Of a stretch of 64,000 nt of DNA, positions 29,946-38,582 are shown piece by piece. The DNA lies in assembly GCA_020436085.1 (NCBI GenBank), contig JAGQYM010000011.1, forward strand, positions 32,665 through 96,664, in the 5' to 3' direction. The translations under genes were made by a program, and so were the position numbers. Position 1 is the first letter of the stretch; every line of letters begins with the position of its first letter. This DNA is from Cyclobacteriaceae bacterium. GTDB lineage: Bacteria; Bacteroidota; Bacteroidia; Cytophagales; Cyclobacteriaceae. The notes beneath the pieces are model-generated. The model worked only from the letters and a program-made list of their open reading frames with translations, made no database searches and was not told where the DNA came from.

Positions 29946-30127
29946 AGAATTCAGGTTTAAGTCAATGAATGTATTTAAAAAGGCCATGAACGAAAAGAGT
30001 TCTTATAAGATCGGCTGAACACTCACCTTCAAAGGGGGTGCATTGATTGTTTTTAAAACCCCTCACTGTTCGGGATGGTTTCTTATCGATCAAAAATCTA
30101 ATGTTGTCTGTTGTTTGGCTGGTCTGT

Positions 30128-31207
30128 ATGAAGGTAACAAAAGCAAATTTCATAGCCGTAATGTCATGCGCGGTACTGCTTGCCTGCAGCGAGGATGATG
30201 AGCCCGCTATTGCACCAGCAGAAGGATGGGAACTTGCCTCACCATCTTCACAAAATATAGAGGACTTAAGTGGTCTTGATGCGAAAGCATCCGCACTTGC
30301 GAGGCTTACCAGCGTTGCAGTTGTACGCAATGGCAAACTTGTCTACCATTCATATCACAACGGGTACAAGCAGGACAGCCTTCACGATGTTAGGTCGGTA
30401 ACCAAAAGTGTGGTGGGATTGCTAGTGGGTAAGGCGTTGGAGGACGGAGCTATCGGGAGTATCGATGACCCAATTGATTTCTACCTTCCCGATGAGTTTT
30501 CGTTAAATGAAAAGCAAAAGGAGATTACGATTCATCATCTCTTGAATATGTCAGGAGGATTCCAGTGGAACGAAACGAATGGAAATGCTTACAACGAATG
30601 GGTGTTGTCGGAAGATCCAATGCAATTTTTATTAGACAAGCCAATAGTTAATACTCCAGGAAGCACATACAATTACAATTCAGCGGCCGTACATCTCCTT
30701 GGTGTCGTACTTGCCAACGCAACCGGGTCCAATCTTAAAGATTATGCTCAGTCTGTTTTGTTTGATAAAATTGAAATTCCGCAAACGCAGTGGGAAAGTG
30801 TGGATGAGACTTATTTTAATGGAGGATCTGGCATCCGATTAAGAACGCTGGACCTGGCGCGAATAGGACAGTTGGTTCTTAACGGAGGTACATTCAAAGG
30901 TGAATCGGTAGTGCCAGTGGAGTGGGTTAACTTTATGACCACCCCAGCCTATAGTTGGACGCTTGACTACGGCTTCTTTCGCGATTATACCTATGGTAAT
31001 CTCTTTTGGGTTCATGAATATGAGGGAGAGACTAATTATCTGGCATGGGGATATGGTGGTCAATTCATTTACATCAGCCCACCCAAAAACCTGGTGATTG
31101 TCACCACAACCAACTGGATCGCTTTAAGTGAAATAGGCGGACCAGGCGTTTCCGAACAGCAGGCCTTCGACCTGATCCTGAACTACATCCTTCCACGAGT
31201 CAAATAG
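30128..31207 (+). CDS. Serine hydrolase lipoprotein, beta-lactamase fold
   Basis: A 359-aa protein. The ATG at 30128 gives a lipoprotein signal peptide (lipobox LLAC, Cys about residue 20); an earlier TTG at 30047 is unlikely. S-x-x-K motif: Ser90-Val-Thr-Lys93. The Tyr motif lies in TYNYNSAA (Tyr183). The C-terminal WGYGGQFIYISP replaces the KTG triad with a GGQ segment, as is common in class C-like esterases. It is only distantly like the hydrolase at 12721. Role: periplasmic hydrolysis of an ester or amide; substrate unknown. Confidence 0.88.
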   Translation: MKVTKANFIAVMSCAVLLACSEDDEPAIAPAEGWELASPSSQNIEDLSGLDAKASALARLTSVAVVRNGKLVYHSYHNGYKQDSLHDVRSVTKSVVGLLVGKALEDGAIGSIDDPIDFYLPDEFSLNEKQKEITIHHLLNMSGGFQWNETNGNAYNEWVLSEDPMQFLLDKPIVNTPGSTYNYNSAAVHLLGVVLANATGSNLKDYAQSVLFDKIEIPQTQWESVDETYFNGGSGIRLRTLDLARIGQLVLNGGTFKGESVVPVEWVNFMTTPAYSWTLDYGFFRDYTYGNLFWVHEYEGETNYLAWGYGGQFIYISPPKNLVIVTTTNWIALSEIGGPGVSEQQAFDLILNYILPRVK

Positions 31208-31275
31208 CAAAGCCTCTGCCGAAAAGGCATTTACCACCGTTTATCAGAGGTGTTGGCCATATTTGTAATCAATGC

Positions 31276-31445
31276 TTAAACCCGGAATATGCAATAGAGA
31301 TTTTGTTCGCTTCGAGCAAAATATTTTATCGCATATTGACGAATGCTGATGGTAACATCGGCATTGTCAGGGTTTAACCCAGACAAAGCGTAGCTTTCGT
31401 CTGCTCTCCGGGCAAATTATGCTCGAATGCATAATTTGGGTTAAA
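31276..31445 (+). ncRNA. Highly structured two-module element upstream of lactate genes
   Basis: Nearly every base can pair. Module A: outer stem 31276-31283 with 31370-31377 (TTAAACCC/GGGTTTAA) encloses two arms. Arm 1 is 31286-31292 with 31331-31337 around 31300-31309 with 31313-31322; arm 2 is 31338-31340 plus 31342-31351 with 31356-31368. Module B: outer stem 31373-31380 with 31438-31445 (TTTAACCC/GGGTTAAA) encloses 31380-31389 with 31393-31403 and the perfect 10-bp stem 31413-31422 with 31429-31438. The two outer stems share the palindrome GGGTTTAACCC, so they exclude each other. The element ends 19 nt before the dehydrogenase ATG. It could be a leader RNA or a REP/MITE-like DNA element; I match it to no known family. 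Confidence 0.55.
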
Positions 31446-31464
31446 TTGATTTATTAATCTTCGT

Positions 31465-34377
31465 ATGTCCGTGACCTCAACTCCTACATCTTCCGATACA
31501 ACGTCCAAATCGTTCGCTAATCTTTTACGTCAGGCGCTGACATGTGAAGTCCTTGATGACGCCTATTCACTTGGTATGTATTCCACTGATGCGAGTATCT
31601 ACCAGGTACAACCAGTCGCGGTAGTGATCCCAAAGGATGAATCGGATGTGCGAAAGGCTGTGGAGCTTGCTAACCAACATAACGTATCAATTTTACCCAG
31701 AGGTGGTGGAACGAGCCTCGCAGGTCAGAGCGTAGGGAGATCGATGATTCTTGATTTCTCGAAACATCTTGACAAGGTGATAGAAATTAATGCCGAGGAA
31801 CAATGGGTGAGAGTTCAGCCGGGAAAGATCAGAGACGAACTCAACGCAGAACTCAAGAAATACAATCTGCACTTTGCACCAGACCCCGCCACAAGCAGCC
31901 GCGCAAATGTTGGTGGCATGGTGGGCAACAACAGTTCCGGGATGAAAAGCATCCTCTATGGAAAGACCGTTGACCATGTGTTGGAAGCGCGTGTACTACT
32001 TGCAGATGGCACTCAAATGCATTTGAAGAAAACTTCACCAGAGGAGTATTCACAAATTGAAAACAAGAATGATCGCGAGGGGCAGATATATAAAAAGTTC
32101 AGATCCCTGGTAAAGGAACAGGCAGAGGAGGTTGAAAAACGCTTCCCAAAAGTGATGCGAAGAGTGGGCGGCTACAATTTAGACGAGTTCACAAATACCC
32201 CCGATTGGAACCTCGCCAAACTCATCACCGGAAGTGAAGGGACTTTGGCCGTAACACTTGAATTAAAACTAAACCTCGAACCGCTCCCCAAACATAAATC
32301 TGTTTGTGCGCTTCACTTCAAAACCTTTTTGGATGCGATAGGTACCGTCTCCGATATCTTGAAATATAAACCCGCTGCCGTTGAGATCATTGACGAGACC
32401 GTGATCAAGTTGAGCAGAGAGAATCTTACAACCAAACAGTACTGCCATTTCATTCATGGTGATCCCGGAGCAATTCTCCTCGTTGAGTTTTATGACGATG
32501 ATGCGCAAAAGGTGCTTGATCGGCCAAAGCAAATGGCCGATGACCTTCAGCACTTGGGCAAAGGATATGCCTATCCTATCTATGGTGAGGGAAGAGAATA
32601 TGATGAAGTATTGTTAGTGCGCAAGAAAGGTCTCGGACTAATGATGGGAATGACGGGCGGGCCGAAACCACTTGCTTTTATTGAAGATGCAGCAGTACCC
32701 ATAGAACACTTGCCCGAATACATAGACTCCGTTGTTAAAGTGTGTGAGAAACATGGCACGTTTCCCGCGATGTATGCCCATGCCAGCGTGGGGTTGATAC
32801 ACGTACGCCCGATTCTGGATTTGCGCAAGCAGGAAGACATTGAGAAACTGAAGGGAATAGCCAATGATACCTTCGATCTTGTGGTGAAATACAAAGGTGC
32901 ATGGAGTGGTGAGCATGGTGATGGCATGGTGCGCAGCCCGTTCAATGAGAAGTTCTTCGGCAAACAATTGTATGATGCATTCAAAGAAGTGAAGCGTCTG
33001 TTTGATCCAAAGAATCTCATGAACCCGGGAAAGATCGTTGATGCTGAACCGATTGACAGCAACCTGAAATATGGTTCCAGCTATCGAGATTCAGATGTAG
33101 CTGCTCAGTTTCACTATCGCAAGGAGGGAAACTTCAGCGAATCAGTGCACATGTGTACTGGTGTGGGTGAGTGTCGCAAGACAATGGGTGGCACAATGTG
33201 TCCAAGTTTCCGTGCCACAAGGGATGAGGAACATTCAACTCGTGGTCGCGCCAATGCCCTTCGCATGGCGATGTCCAATCAACTCGATGACATGGGGCTG
33301 ACAAGCCCACGACTGCATCAGGCCCTAGATCTTTGTCTGTCCTGTAAAGCATGCAAGTCAGAGTGTCCCAGCAATGTGGATATGGCCAAGATGAAGAGCG
33401 ATGTGCAACAACTCTATTATGAAAAGCATGGCACCACATTGCGCGATCGATTGATACGCGACTCAGCGAAAGCATCAAAACAATTTTCAGGTGGATTGGC
33501 AAAGTTGGTTAACAGTATCCAGCGCAGCGGTCTCTTTCGATCTGCGATGGATAGCCTCGCAGGCTTCGACAAGAAAAGGGTGTTGCCAGACCATGCCTCT
33601 GAGCCTTTCTATAAATGGTTTGAGAAAAATGGTAAGAACCAGCCCGAAGAAAACAAGCAGGTTGTACTCTTTGCCGACACTTATCTCAACTACCACGAAC
33701 CCAACATTGGTATCTCAGCCTATGAGCTGCTCTCATCTTGTGGGTATGAAGTTATTCTTGCCAATGTAGGTTGTTGTCAGCGCCCGAAGATATCCCATGG
33801 CTTTTTGAAAGAAGCGAAGGAACATGGCCAGAAAACCTTGGATGGCTTGAAAGTATACCTGAGTAAGGGATTGAAAGTAGTGGTATGTGAACCCAGCTGT
33901 GCATCAGCATTGAATGACGACCTTCCTGACCTGATCGATGACCAGGCCTTGGGAGCGCAACTGAAGGAAGGAGTAATGATGATTGATGTGTTCCTCCAAA
34001 AGGAAATGGATAATGGAAATTTGGATAAGAAACTGACCTCGATAGCAGGCAATATCTCCATACATGGTCATTGTCATCAAAAGGCCCTATACGGCACAGC
34101 CGCTATGAAGAAAACAATTCATGCCAACGGGCATACCATTAGCGAGATACCTTCCGGTTGCTGCGGCATGGCAGGATCGTTTGGTTATGAAAAGGAACAT
34201 TATGATCTGTCCGAAAAGATAGGAGAGAGTGTTCTTTTCCCACAGGTGAGAACAATGAAAGATGGAACGACATTAGTAGCCAACGGATTTAGCTGTCGCC
34301 ACCAGATAGAACATTTTACAGGAGTAAAACCGAAACACTGGGTTGAAGTAGTGAGACCCATTTCCGATAATGATTAA
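31465..34377 (+). CDS. FAD-linked oxidase / Fe-S / CCG fusion, probable D-lactate or D-2-hydroxyacid dehydrogenase
   Basis: A 970-aa fusion. The FAD-binding domain covers about residues 45-190 (ILPRGGGTSLAGQ), the FAD-oxidase C-terminal domain about 225-530, a two-cluster ferredoxin region starts at Cys564 with CLSCKACKSECP from Cys624, and two CCG segments lie at Cys770-Cys771 and Cys899-Cys900. This is the GlcD+GlcF arrangement in one chain, as in YdiJ-type D-2-hydroxyacid dehydrogenases. The lactate permease gene 125 bp downstream makes D-lactate (or a related 2-hydroxy acid) the likely substrate, with electrons passed to the quinone pool. Known YdiJ-like proteins are about 1000 aa, so it is complete. 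Confidence 0.88.
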   Translation: MSVTSTPTSSDTTSKSFANLLRQALTCEVLDDAYSLGMYSTDASIYQVQPVAVVIPKDESDVRKAVELANQHNVSILPRGGGTSLAGQSVGRSMILDFSKHLDKVIEINAEEQWVRVQPGKIRDELNAELKKYNLHFAPDPATSSRANVGGMVGNNSSGMKSILYGKTVDHVLEARVLLADGTQMHLKKTSPEEYSQIENKNDREGQIYKKFRSLVKEQAEEVEKRFPKVMRRVGGYNLDEFTNTPDWNLAKLITGSEGTLAVTLELKLNLEPLPKHKSVCALHFKTFLDAIGTVSDILKYKPAAVEIIDETVIKLSRENLTTKQYCHFIHGDPGAILLVEFYDDDAQKVLDRPKQMADDLQHLGKGYAYPIYGEGREYDEVLLVRKKGLGLMMGMTGGPKPLAFIEDAAVPIEHLPEYIDSVVKVCEKHGTFPAMYAHASVGLIHVRPILDLRKQEDIEKLKGIANDTFDLVVKYKGAWSGEHGDGMVRSPFNEKFFGKQLYDAFKEVKRLFDPKNLMNPGKIVDAEPIDSNLKYGSSYRDSDVAAQFHYRKEGNFSESVHMCTGVGECRKTMGGTMCPSFRATRDEEHSTRGRANALRMAMSNQLDDMGLTSPRLHQALDLCLSCKACKSECPSNVDMAKMKSDVQQLYYEKHGTTLRDRLIRDSAKASKQFSGGLAKLVNSIQRSGLFRSAMDSLAGFDKKRVLPDHASEPFYKWFEKNGKNQPEENKQVVLFADTYLNYHEPNIGISAYELLSSCGYEVILANVGCCQRPKISHGFLKEAKEHGQKTLDGLKVYLSKGLKVVVCEPSCASALNDDLPDLIDDQALGAQLKEGVMMIDVFLQKEMDNGNLDKKLTSIAGNISIHGHCHQKALYGTAAMKKTIHANGHTISEIPSGCCGMAGSFGYEKEHYDLSEKIGESVLFPQVRTMKDGTTLVANGFSCRHQIEHFTGVKPKHWVEVVRPISDND

Positions 34378-34502: not shown

Positions 34503-36167
34503 ATGACGCTTAGCTCCCTCGCATTCTTCGCCATCCTCCCAATCCTCACAGCAGGAGTGATGCTCGTTGGATTCAAGTTGCCTGCGAAGACTACCATGCC
34601 AGTAGCATTTGTGATGACTGCGTTGATTGGTTTTTTCATCTGGGGCATTCCGTTCATTGACCTTATCGCGAGTTGCGTTCAAAGTGTGTTCATCACCTTT
34701 GATATCCTCTACATCATCTTTGCAGCTATCCTACTACTAAACCTCCTTACTCAGTCCGGAGCAATGACAGTCATAAGGAATGGCTTTTCGACTATTAGTA
34801 ATGATAGGCGCATTCAAGTAGTAATTATCGTGTGGCTTTTTGGATCGTTCATCGAAGGAGCCTCAGGCTTTGGAACTCCAGCAGCCATTGTAGCACCATT
34901 GCTCTTGGCGCTTGGTTTTCCTGCGCTGACTTCCGTGATGTTAGGCATGATGGTGCAGAGCACGGCCGTGACGTTCGGAGCGGTTGGAACACCAGTATTG
35001 GTAGGAATAAGAGGTGGATTATTGAGTCCTGGACTGGAAGCGCAGTTGGCCACACACGGTCTTACTTTCATGGATTACATCCAAAAGGTGACAGTGAACG
35101 TGGCGTATATGCATGCAATTGCCGGAACGATTATGCCAACATTGATGGTATGTATGATGACCCGATTCTTTGGGAAAAGTAAAAGTTGGAGAGAAGGTTT
35201 TAAAGTGTTGCCTTTCACGCTGTTAGGTGGATTGGCCTTCACTGTTCCTTATTTGATTACGGGCATTGTACTGGGGCCCGAATTTCCCTCGCTGTTGGGC
35301 TCAATGACCGGAATGGTGATTATGGTGTCTGTCGCTCGAGCTGGAATACTCCAACCAAAGGAGCCATGGGACTTCGAGTCCAAAGATCAATGGCCGGAAT
35401 CTTGGATGGGAAAACTTGATCCCAAAGATGATCAGTCTCACGCCCAGTCCCTGTCGCTGTTCAGATCCTGGACCCCTTATATAGTGGTCGTGGTTTTACT
35501 TGTAATTACCAGGCTCCCGCAATGGCCGTTGAAAGGTTTGTTGTCAACCGCAACAATCGAATGGAATAATATTCTAGGTTCTTCAATCAACGCTTCCAGC
35601 GCTCCGCTGTACCTGCCCGCCACGGTATTATTTGTAGTCGCCCTCATCACTATATGGTTACATAAGATGAGAGCTGAGCAAGTTTCCTCTGCATTCAAAA
35701 GTAGCTTCAGTATGATCTTCGGAGCCGGCTTTGTATTGCTGTTTGCCGTACCCATGGTACGAATCTATATCAACTCAGATGTTAACTTCAACGACTACAT
35801 GGGCATGCCTATCGCTATGGCCGAGTGGGTGGCCGTCAATGTGGGTAATGTCTATCCGTTGTTTGCACCCTCCGTAGGAGCGTTGGGTGCATTCATTGCC
35901 GGCAGCAACACAGTAAGTAATTTGATGCTAAGCCTTTTTCAATTTGGCGTGGCCGAACGCCTTATGATGTCCACCACTTTAATTGTAGCGTTGCAAGCCG
36001 TGGGCGCTGCTGCAGGCAACATGGTTGCCATTCACAATGTTGTGGCTGCCTCCGCCACAGTCGGGTATCTTGGCAACGAAGGCATTGTACTTCGAAAAAC
36101 AGTGCTACCCACCATCTACTATTTGACAATCGTTGGATTAATGGGATTGATTGCAGTTTCCCTTTAG
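34503..36167 (+). CDS. lctP: L-lactate permease family transporter
   Basis: A 554-aa inner-membrane transporter with about 12-14 hydrophobic segments. Family marks: FGSFIEGASGFGTPAAIVAPLLLALGF, with the G-F-GTP motif near residue 120, and GAIVGAFIAGSNTVS-like GALGAFIAGSNTVSNLM near 460. LctP members import lactate or glycolate with protons. It follows the 2-hydroxyacid dehydrogenase, so the two form an uptake-and-oxidation pair. Confidence 0.92.
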   Translation: MTLSSLAFFAILPILTAGVMLVGFKLPAKTTMPVAFVMTALIGFFIWGIPFIDLIASCVQSVFITFDILYIIFAAILLLNLLTQSGAMTVIRNGFSTISNDRRIQVVIIVWLFGSFIEGASGFGTPAAIVAPLLLALGFPALTSVMLGMMVQSTAVTFGAVGTPVLVGIRGGLLSPGLEAQLATHGLTFMDYIQKVTVNVAYMHAIAGTIMPTLMVCMMTRFFGKSKSWREGFKVLPFTLLGGLAFTVPYLITGIVLGPEFPSLLGSMTGMVIMVSVARAGILQPKEPWDFESKDQWPESWMGKLDPKDDQSHAQSLSLFRSWTPYIVVVVLLVITRLPQWPLKGLLSTATIEWNNILGSSINASSAPLYLPATVLFVVALITIWLHKMRAEQVSSAFKSSFSMIFGAGFVLLFAVPMVRIYINSDVNFNDYMGMPIAMAEWVAVNVGNVYPLFAPSVGALGAFIAGSNTVSNLMLSLFQFGVAERLMMSTTLIVALQAVGAAAGNMVAIHNVVAASATVGYLGNEGIVLRKTVLPTIYYLTIVGLMGLIAVSL

Positions 36168-36699: not shown

Positions 36700-38582
36700 T
36701 TGGAGTAATATTCATTACTCTCATTTTTATTTCTTCAGTAAATGCCCAGGGTATATCTTCAGACCAACTTACCTCTCTAGTCACCCTGATGCGAAGGGCT
36801 GCGAATTCAGGAAGCCCTGACTCTGTTCACTTTTTTGGGCAACGGGCAATCAAGATATGCAATGAGGTGGGAGACTCAGTGCAACTTGCTCAGACTTTTC
36901 AAAACATGGGTAACTCGTACTTCATCGCGAGCCAGTTTGACAGTTCTTATCGATATTACCAGCTATCTGCAGAAACGTTTGAGAGGCTTCAAAGGCGCAG
37001 AGACGCAGCATTTGTCTATAGACGATTAGGCACCAACTACAAAGGTGAATTACTCTTCACCGAAGCGTTACAAGCATTTCATAACTCACTTGAACTGTTC
37101 TATGAGCTTGGTGATTCTTTGGAAATGTCTTATTCCTACTCTTTTTTAGCTTCACTCAATAGATCTCAAGGGAACTACGATCTTTCCATTGAACAAGCAC
37201 AAATCGCCCACGGGATTGCCAGGTCAATGAAAGATGATGCTTTGATCGGTATGTCGCTATTGGAATCCGGATTGACCTATACAACCATAGGGATTTATGA
37301 TAGCGCACTGACCCAGGGAGAGACTGCGCTTAAGATTTTTGAAACTGGGAAGTATGGATTTGGAAAAGTGGAGTCGCAGCTATTGATTATCAAAGCCTAT
37401 ATCGGACTCAATAATTACACCAAAGCGGAACAGCTGGCCCTAAAGTATTTAAGTACAGCGGAGAACTCGGGCAATTTAGGGAGTCAATCAGATGGAAGAC
37501 TCTTCCTTGGAAAGGCGATGGTCCTGAATGGAAAATATGAGGAAGGGCTTAGGGAACTGAACAACGCTATTGTTCTTGCCAGAAGAATGAACTACACAGA
37601 AAAGATAATGGAAGCGGAACGACTGCTCTCTATTTGTTACGAACGCCTTGAGATGCCGAAGGAAGCATTTGATCACTTGTCAAACTATGTGACCCTGCGC
37701 GATTCTGTGTTCTATACAGAGAAGTCCAGGGAGATTGAAAAACTGCAAGCTCAGTTTTCACTAAAGAACAAACAAAGAGAGATTGAACAGCTTAGGGTGG
37801 CATCAGAGCTTAAGGACTTGCGATTGCAACAGTCTAGAAACAGGATCTTACTCGTGATGGTAATGGCCATCGCGGTGATCGCCATCGTCCTGTTATTTTA
37901 CAATCGAAAAATACTGAAGCAACGTATCAGCTTTGCAGAAGAGCGAGAGAAACTACAGAAGAGCCGCTTTCAGGCTGTAATTGATGCTGAAGAAAAAGAG
38001 CGAAAGAGGATAGCCCGCGAACTACACGATGGCATTGGCCAACAATTGGGAGGACTGAGAATTAAACTTCAAAATATTGAAGCTAATATTACCGACAGCC
38101 CGGTAAAGACCAGCCTTGAGCAACTCAAAGGGATTGTAAACAACACAGCAACAGACGTGAGAACAATTTCACACCAAATGATGCCACGCGCCCTTACGGA
38201 AGTGGGTCTTGGACCGGCCATGAGAGACGTTTTAGAGAGCAGCCTTGGGGCAAGTAACATTAACTTTCAATTCGATAATTTAGCTGACGGTACCCGATAC
38301 TCAGAGCAGGTGGAAATATCAATTTACAGGATACTTCAGGAGTTGATCAATAATATTATCAAGCATTCGCAGGCTTCAGATGTTTCCGTACAACTATTTA
38401 GTCTGTCAGGTCGACTTGTAATGACTGTGCAAGACAATGGTATCGGGATGGAACAAAATGGATCTGACGGACAGGGGTTGTTGAATATCAAACAGCGATC
38501 AGAGATATTAGGTGGAAATGTGTTGTTTGAGTCGGGGAAAGAAGGCGGGGTTGTGTGCACCGTTAGCATACCCATTTCATGA
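36633..38582 (+). CDS. TPR-type membrane histidine kinase (HisKA_3)
   Basis: Up to 649 aa. Periplasmic TPR repeats fill about residues 60-400, a coiled coil follows (EIEKLQAQFSLKNKQREIEQL), then one transmembrane helix (about 412-433, ILLVMVMAIAVIAIVLLFY), a HisKA_3 domain with His465 in ARELHDGIGQQLGG, and an HATPase domain. The kinase is paired with the NarL-type regulator that starts inside its stop (ATGA). The start is uncertain: the signal peptide begins about residue 20 (RRLIGVIFITLIFISSVNA), and the only in-frame conventional start codon is GTG at 36633, deep inside the preceding lipoprotein gene. An ATT or ATA start near 36699-36708 is possible. Confidence 0.9.
   Translation: MGGPENTEHRWKDEVYSGHRRLIGVIFITLIFISSVNAQGISSDQLTSLVTLMRRAANSGSPDSVHFFGQRAIKICNEVGDSVQLAQTFQNMGNSYFIASQFDSSYRYYQLSAETFERLQRRRDAAFVYRRLGTNYKGELLFTEALQAFHNSLELFYELGDSLEMSYSYSFLASLNRSQGNYDLSIEQAQIAHGIARSMKDDALIGMSLLESGLTYTTIGIYDSALTQGETALKIFETGKYGFGKVESQLLIIKAYIGLNNYTKAEQLALKYLSTAENSGNLGSQSDGRLFLGKAMVLNGKYEEGLRELNNAIVLARRMNYTEKIMEAERLLSICYERLEMPKEAFDHLSNYVTLRDSVFYTEKSREIEKLQAQFSLKNKQREIEQLRVASELKDLRLQQSRNRILLVMVMAIAVIAIVLLFYNRKILKQRISFAEEREKLQKSRFQAVIDAEEKERKRIARELHDGIGQQLGGLRIKLQNIEANITDSPVKTSLEQLKGIVNNTATDVRTISHQMMPRALTEVGLGPAMRDVLESSLGASNINFQFDNLADGTRYSEQVEISIYRILQELINNIIKHSQASDVSVQLFSLSGRLVMTVQDNGIGMEQNGSDGQGLLNIKQRSEILGGNVLFESGKEGGVVCTVSIPIS

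Follow-up and report, generated by a model that had tools for sequence, protein, structure and literature searches.

A probable two-module MITE with IS1380-type ends in front of a 2-hydroxyacid dehydrogenase-like gene of a Cyclobacteriaceae bacterium

The locus and its folded element

The window, that is, the whole stretch of 64,000 nucleotides analysed here, carries a strongly folded element at positions 31276-31445, in the gap between two plus-strand genes. The upstream gene (30047-31207) encodes a beta-lactamase-family protein (PF00144), and the downstream gene (31465-34377) encodes an FAD/Fe-S 2-hydroxyacid dehydrogenase-like protein of 970 aa; a lactate permease-like gene (34503-36167) comes next. 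The nearest profile to the dehydrogenase-like gene was that of a YdiJ-type D-2-hydroxyglutarate dehydrogenase, with a score far under the cut-off of that profile.

Judged from its sequence, the element is most likely a MITE of 160 bp (31281-31440), which runs from CCC to GGG with IS1380-type ends and lies between two copies of a 5-bp TTAAA duplication. The left copy (31276-31280), which begins 68 nt after the end of the upstream gene, is identical to the right copy (31441-31445). The putative left terminal inverted repeat CCCGGAATATGCAATAGAG (31281-31299, plus strand) is diverged and can be compared with CCCAGATTATGCATTAG, found at one end of an IS1380 element (L221), and the right one (31424-31440, minus strand) reads CCCAAATTATGCATTCG on the minus strand. 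Folding predicts two modules between these ends. Module 1 is composed of a long hairpin, arm A (31286-31337), and a GAC-hairpin-GTC structure, arm B (31338-31368), and module 2 of two hairpins, arm C (31381-31402) and arm D (31414-31437), with a small 4-bp hairpin between them (31403-31413). Arm D, which is placed by the fold and by the covariation alignment, overlaps the right terminal repeat. The modules meet at a central junction, GGG-TTTAA-CCC (31370-31380), where two transposon-like ends surround a single TTNAA, an arrangement also seen in the family copies described below.

The preliminary description had placed two outer stems at this locus, and their coordinates were right: 31276-31283 (TTAAACCC) pairs with 31370-31377 (GGGTTTAA), and 31373-31380 (TTTAACCC) pairs with 31438-31445 (GGGTTAAA). 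The palindrome GGGTTTAACCC (31370-31380) is common to both stems, as had been noticed, and the second stem ends at 31445, 19 nt before the ATG at position 31465. The layout of two arms within each outer stem holds for the overall geometry, except that module 2 has the extra 4-bp hairpin. The region 31260-31465 had a folding energy of -75.3 kcal/mol, compared with -43.7 +/- 4.1 for 200 shuffles (z -7.75), none of which was as good, and of 300 stretches of 170 nt drawn at random from the window, none matched the folding strength of the element. As a small departure from the statement that nearly every base is paired, 76% of the bases are paired at the free minimum. Likewise, the outer stems are mutually exclusive by sequence, but the free minimum (-72.8 kcal/mol) forms neither of them in full; imposing outer stem 1 or 2 gave about equal energies of -68.2 and -67.9 kcal/mol, respectively. 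The Rfam search at gathering scores gave no match within the element, the sole match in the window being a tRNA, and the element was still without a match at E values up to 1.

Copies of the element and anatomy of the family

According to the preliminary description, copies scattered between unrelated genes would mean a mobile or REP-type element. The genome of the window (G000; 4.42 Mb in 191 contigs, 98.93% complete) gave nine matches at E <= 10, the significant ones being the window and three others at E <= 3.2e-5, on contigs C113 (83% over 156 bp), C33 and C107. The genes that follow these further copies are methylmalonyl-CoA mutase-like, AraC-like and thiolase-like, names read from the translations alone, and are unrelated to the dehydrogenase. 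The copies are thus scattered before unrelated genes, as for a mobile element. The C113 copy (L013:2948-3117) sits between the methylmalonyl-CoA mutase-like gene and a minus-strand gene that is dnaA-like by its translation alone, the two genes being divergent; because the dnaA-like gene adjoins it, this copy is perhaps near the replication origin.

When 96 genomes of relatives were searched, scoring up to eight candidates per genome, 20 of them (the window's own included) matched at E <= 0.01. These comprised 19 of the 58 genomes of the same genus and one of the 38 outside it, where the match was a 31-bp stretch. Part of the 20 matching genomes showed end motifs only, and the matches L033 (G019) and L035 (G033) were, by eye, unlike the element. 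The terminal-repeat pattern AACCCAAATTATGCATTAG, with up to two mismatches, was found in 31 of the 62 genus genomes, with 301 matches against three for the reversed control, a count that includes the ends of coreless elements and of IS copies. Most matches were in G024 (at least 108, a lower bound because many contigs of this genome end inside copies), G033 (35), G043 (35) and G032 (30), and G029 has 12. Another type of MITE, 164-168 bp long, has the same terminal repeats without the central junction and was found in G034 (L030/L220) and G041 (L031/L218).

In the named genome collection, 77 stretches contained the exact core pattern TTGTCARGGTTWAACCYWGAC; by their titles, 63 of them are from Bacteroidota and 14 from other groups (13 candidate phyla and one cyanobacterium). 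A 21-bp perfect palindrome, TGTCAAGGTTWAACCTTGACA, accounts for ten of the 77 (one Lloydbacteria assembly), and at L117:6701-7424 and L133:1786-2513 (Lloydbacteria and Gottesmanbacteria) it immediately precedes genes with kinship to REP-associated (Y1) transposases. A kinship between the MITE core and this palindrome was rejected, as in none of the 14 non-Bacteroidota stretches does a MITE-like end lie closer than 200 bp to the core; for this reason the likeness is treated as unproven and possibly convergent. A phage or plasmid origin of the element was also rejected: neither collection matched at E <= 0.01, and no viral contig carried the exact core pattern.

Placed side by side, 49 distinct cores, some of them cut by contig ends, follow one grammar that is readable in either direction: TTNAA-CCC-armA-TTGACGA-armB-GTCA-GGG-TTWAA-CCC-TGAC-armC-GTCA-armD-GGG-TTNAA. 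The outer ends of the copies are terminal repeats of type CCCARATTATGCATTAG. The inner motif TTNAACCYTGAC, counted together with its form that has TT before GAC, was preceded by GG in 149 of 162 occurrences, deduplicated by context only so that overlapping fetches may count twice, and the junction is therefore nearly always internal. A few of the 13 exceptions (L004, L088, L091 and L126) are elements with an outer end of that type, and the others are mutated junctions or chance; the junction variant of the window, CCCAGAC, falls outside the TTNAACCYTGAC pattern.

The element is built of two modules in inverted arrangement, CCC-armA-armB-GGG and CCC-armC-armD-GGG, which have a single internal TTWAA in common. 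The composite appears to move as one unit, because the outermost TTNAA varies between copies while the centre stays. The junction may go back to the insertion of one element into another's target duplication, or to two ends that came to abut. A site shared by G010 and G024 (L193:1503-1678 and L321:1500-1725) has flanks 96-98% identical over 500 bp and the same TTAAA duplication, but holds MITEs of 176 and 226 bp, respectively, which differ by arm changes and an insertion at the junction. This could be explained either by conversion by another copy or by repeated use of one site. The layout is unusual in its two inverted modules, its fixed end-target-end junction (GG-TTWAA-CC) and its exchangeable arms; the element is of an ordinary kind with an unusual body plan. 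No such two-module family was found among the matches listed in the open-licence literature on IS1380, TTNAA transposases, Cytophagales MITEs and nested or tandem bacterial MITEs.

Target duplications, empty sites and the leader-RNA reading

The preliminary description offered two readings, a switching leader RNA that senses something like lactate, or a compound REP/MITE-like DNA element with TTAA-rich ends. The variable outer base separates them, since in TTNAACCC/GGGTTNAA an RNA stem demands a complementary N and a target duplication demands an identical N. A scripted scan, which detects only copies with ends within four mismatches, yielded 71 pairs of terminal repeats at a spacing of 60-260 bp, the window's included, and 56 of them carry the core. 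The scan omitted the Y1 loci (L142-L190), the 14 loci from outside Bacteroidota and 12 loci that were weak hits or duplicated regions of G000, and its 56 core rows correspond to 55 places because L077 was counted twice via two left ends. TTNAA is present on both sides of 29 core copies, and N is identical in 28 of these (expected 7.7; none of 10,000 shuffles reached 28) and complementary in none. The 15 coreless pairs gave few cases, with a comparable N in four, equal in three against 2.0 expected.

Over all the core copies, the outer 5-mers were identical in 37 of 56 and non-identical in 19. The four G000 copies all have identical outer 5-mers (TTAAA, TTCAA, TTAAA and TTTAA), the ends of L004 having been chosen by us. 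Loci L074 and L137 have a common left flank and different right flanks, as do L018 and L047, indicating rearranged loci, and the mismatched outer 5-mers are at least partly explained by such recombination between copies.

Empty sites were found for a copy in G024 with the duplication TTCAA (L325:1528-1710, contig C49 of G024). Its flanks abut in three of the nine other genomes searched (G043, G010 and G099), where the alignments overlap by 5-6 bases, and the empty site is TTCAT in G099 and a single TTCAA in the other two. An open frame spans the empty site, with 148 codons in G010 and G099 and 78 codons in G043, and the G024 frame stops within the element at 118 codons. These elements therefore insert and can break genes. 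For the insertion in the window no empty site was found, as the region 30047-31900 matched itself, copies of the element and one dehydrogenase stretch in G021. Regarding gene context, the neighbouring genes are tandem for 31 core copies, convergent for 11 and divergent for nine, five copies have one side uncalled, and none of the 56 lies wholly inside a frame; context here means open reading frames of at least 100 aa, not annotation, and L325 was called as lying between genes though a frame is interrupted.

The covariation check proposed in the preliminary description was done on ten copies of the window's subfamily, in an alignment (A2) whose left side places L003 and the long arm A poorly, arm A being outside the pair test. 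In arms B, C and D, 92.6% of the pairs are kept, and 9 of the 33 pairs are changed on both sides, compared with 4.5 in shuffled and 1-3 in slid alignments; arm B (helices 1 and 2) shows such pair-keeping changes, and helix 3, in arm C, has no pair changed on both sides. In outer stems 1 and 2, none of the eight pairs each was changed on both sides and pairing was not above that of shuffles. Compensatory changes occur in the arms and are absent from the outer stems on which the switching was supposed to depend. Covariation alone would mislead here, because arms are kept as palindromes in jumping elements.

A riboswitch-like leader RNA, sensing lactate or a related metabolite through mutually exclusive outer stems, is extremely improbable in light of these data. 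It could draw on the strong fold (z -7.75), on the covarying arms and on the gene start found on the right side of all four G000 copies, but these copies precede dehydrogenase-, mutase-, AraC- and thiolase-like genes, and the 56 core copies as a whole have 50 gene-start sides versus 57 gene-end sides. The outer stems lack covariation, their variable base is complementary in 0/29, and Rfam has no match. The element is also absent before the two closest dehydrogenase homologues, in G025 (78% identity) and G021 (67%), where the upstream sequence up to the contig end, about 1.4 kb and 0.7 kb, respectively, holds neither the core nor the terminal repeat; G021 has one chance-level core hit with four mismatches about 690 bp upstream of its homologue. 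Since the target duplications and empty sites contradict it as well, the claim of a lactate-sensing leader is not supported, and its outer 'stems' are target duplications and transposon ends.

A related proposal is that this copy of the MITE was co-opted as a regulatory leader (a structure, a processing site or a promoter) of the dehydrogenase-permease genes, which we regard as unlikely. The distance of 19 nt to the ATG and the very stable fold favour it, and outward promoters are reported on IS1380 elements elsewhere (PMC9330008). Against it, the placement is not conserved, both close homologues being without the element. A scan of 31201-31500 for a Bacteroidetes promoter consensus, with at most one mismatch, gave no hit, with 47 hits over the whole window on both strands. 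Near the dehydrogenase gene the MITE has most likely inserted as a bystander, and its transcription, if it occurs, would add a very stable folded leader.

An IS1380-type mover and comparison with known systems

The DNA-element reading of the preliminary description was upheld and can be made precise as a MITE with IS1380-type ends and a TTNAA duplication. The PF13701 transposase family was found over its cut-off in seven of the 62 genus genomes (G024, G033, G034, G035, G041, G043 and G099). Terminal-repeat matches occur in all seven and in 24 of the remaining 55. Both proteins tested passed the IS1380 transposase cut-off of NCBIfam, and no solved relative of the transposase was found at E <= 0.01. 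The IS1380 elements are about 1.4 kb long, with ends CCCAGATTATGCATTAG in L221 and CCCAGATTTTGCAGTAG in L236. Flanking 5-mers were identical in 18 of 22 two-ended IS copies (21 from G041 and one from G043) and non-identical in four, and 15 of the 18 identical ones are TTNAA. The ends and target of the MITE therefore match IS1380 elements that are present in sister genomes, a likeness that is confined, by eye, to roughly 17-25 bp at the ends. These genus elements (L221, L223, L224, L227 and L236) have the same CCCARATT..GCA.TAG-type terminal repeats as the MITE, and the copies in G041 also share the TTNAA target with its 5-bp duplication; unlike the MITE, they carry a transposase gene, and no two-module palindromic body was seen in them.

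Taken together, the element is very probably a MITE moved in trans by an IS1380-family transposase with duplication of TTNAA. The DDE transposase of this family would recognise ends of type CCCARATTATGCATTAG and insert the MITE at TTNAA, duplicating 5 bp; the IS1380 enzyme would be the mover, and cut and paste the mode of movement. At E <= 0.001, PF13701 was not detected in G000, in G032 (30 terminal-repeat matches, 100% complete) or in G029 (12 matches, 78% complete). As the latter two are rich in MITEs, the parent is not found everywhere the MITE abounds, so in these three genomes the parent has been lost, escaped the assembly or is another one. The family is linked to IS1380, but the copies in G000 look like fossils because that genome has no match to the transposase family; they would now be immobile, and we do not claim an active pair there.

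The many terminal-repeat matches of G032 and G029 without PF13701 would fit a MITE with TTNAA duplication whose mover is a transposase other than IS1380, to which we give little chance given that IS1380 copies of the genus have the same ends and target. A REP or REPIN-type element moved by a RAYT (Y1 tyrosine transposase) is extremely unlikely. It would account for a palindromic, extragenic element with modules as an inverted pair, G000 has one Y1_Tnp gene, and a similar palindrome precedes a gene related to REP-associated transposases, under the NCBIfam cut-off, at the two candidate-phylum loci mentioned above. Among the 31 Y1_Tnp loci examined, of 38 places, two (L178 and L186) have a coreless pair of MITE-like ends and four a single end-like motif, but none has the core (up to two mismatches, within at most 1.5 kb), so membership among REP elements, as the preliminary description had suggested, finds no backing there. 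The copy-rich G032 gave no match to Y1_Tnp at E <= 0.001, and the target duplication in 28/29 comparable copies also speaks against this origin; to our knowledge, IS200/IS605-type enzymes make no target duplication. Moreover, the sole Y1_Tnp match of G000 (L142; contig C33, ~37490-37705) is flanked by a different palindrome, by eye of type GAGCACGGAACTAAGTTCCGCGCTA, and the two are likely a REP/RAYT system of their own.

REPINs and REP elements also have palindromic modules as an inverted pair and lie outside genes. The MITE differs from REPINs in its target duplication, and no RAYT was found beside the core in the examined loci. Cardinium belongs to the same order as the organism of the window. 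Its element MITECca01 is similarly high-copy, IS-derived and mostly intergenic, but its parent is an IS982 element, and a two-module layout is not among the parts described in the accessible text (PMC9769881). TIMEs are miniature elements that build mosaic non-autonomous transposons, as here, but the accessible part of their description derives them from Tn3 (PMC4133298). IS1247 of Paracoccus is listed as an IS1380-family element of 1672 bp with 5-bp direct repeats (PMC3281130); it shares the repeats and the family with the MITE, but is autonomous and from another phylum.

IS1380 transposases have served as an outgroup to piggyBac, which has a TTAA target and ends often starting with CCC (PMC10813416). 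It differs from the MITE family in being eukaryotic and in its 4-bp TTAA, versus the 5-bp TTNAA here (PMC10813416, PMC7351741). A common mechanism may underlie both. If the junction is kept as the arms turn over, this would suggest that junction and hairpins work in transposition or replication and are not a relic. A piggyBac-related MITE family with a preserved GG-TTWAA-CC junction and arms swapped like cassettes, in which the junction and hairpins act in transposition or replication, is put forward as a tentative and rather doubtful proposal.

In summary, the structure of the element was confirmed, the riboswitch reading was rejected, and the MITE reading is supported, with a family assigned. 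An apparent riboswitch could be settled as mobile DNA without an experiment, by means of one variable position in its outer stems. Compensatory changes in arms can arise in jumping DNA palindromes, so that covariation alone is no proof of RNA. For mobile DNA, a MITE family is added that is linked to IS1380, targets TTNAA and has an unusual body of two modules.
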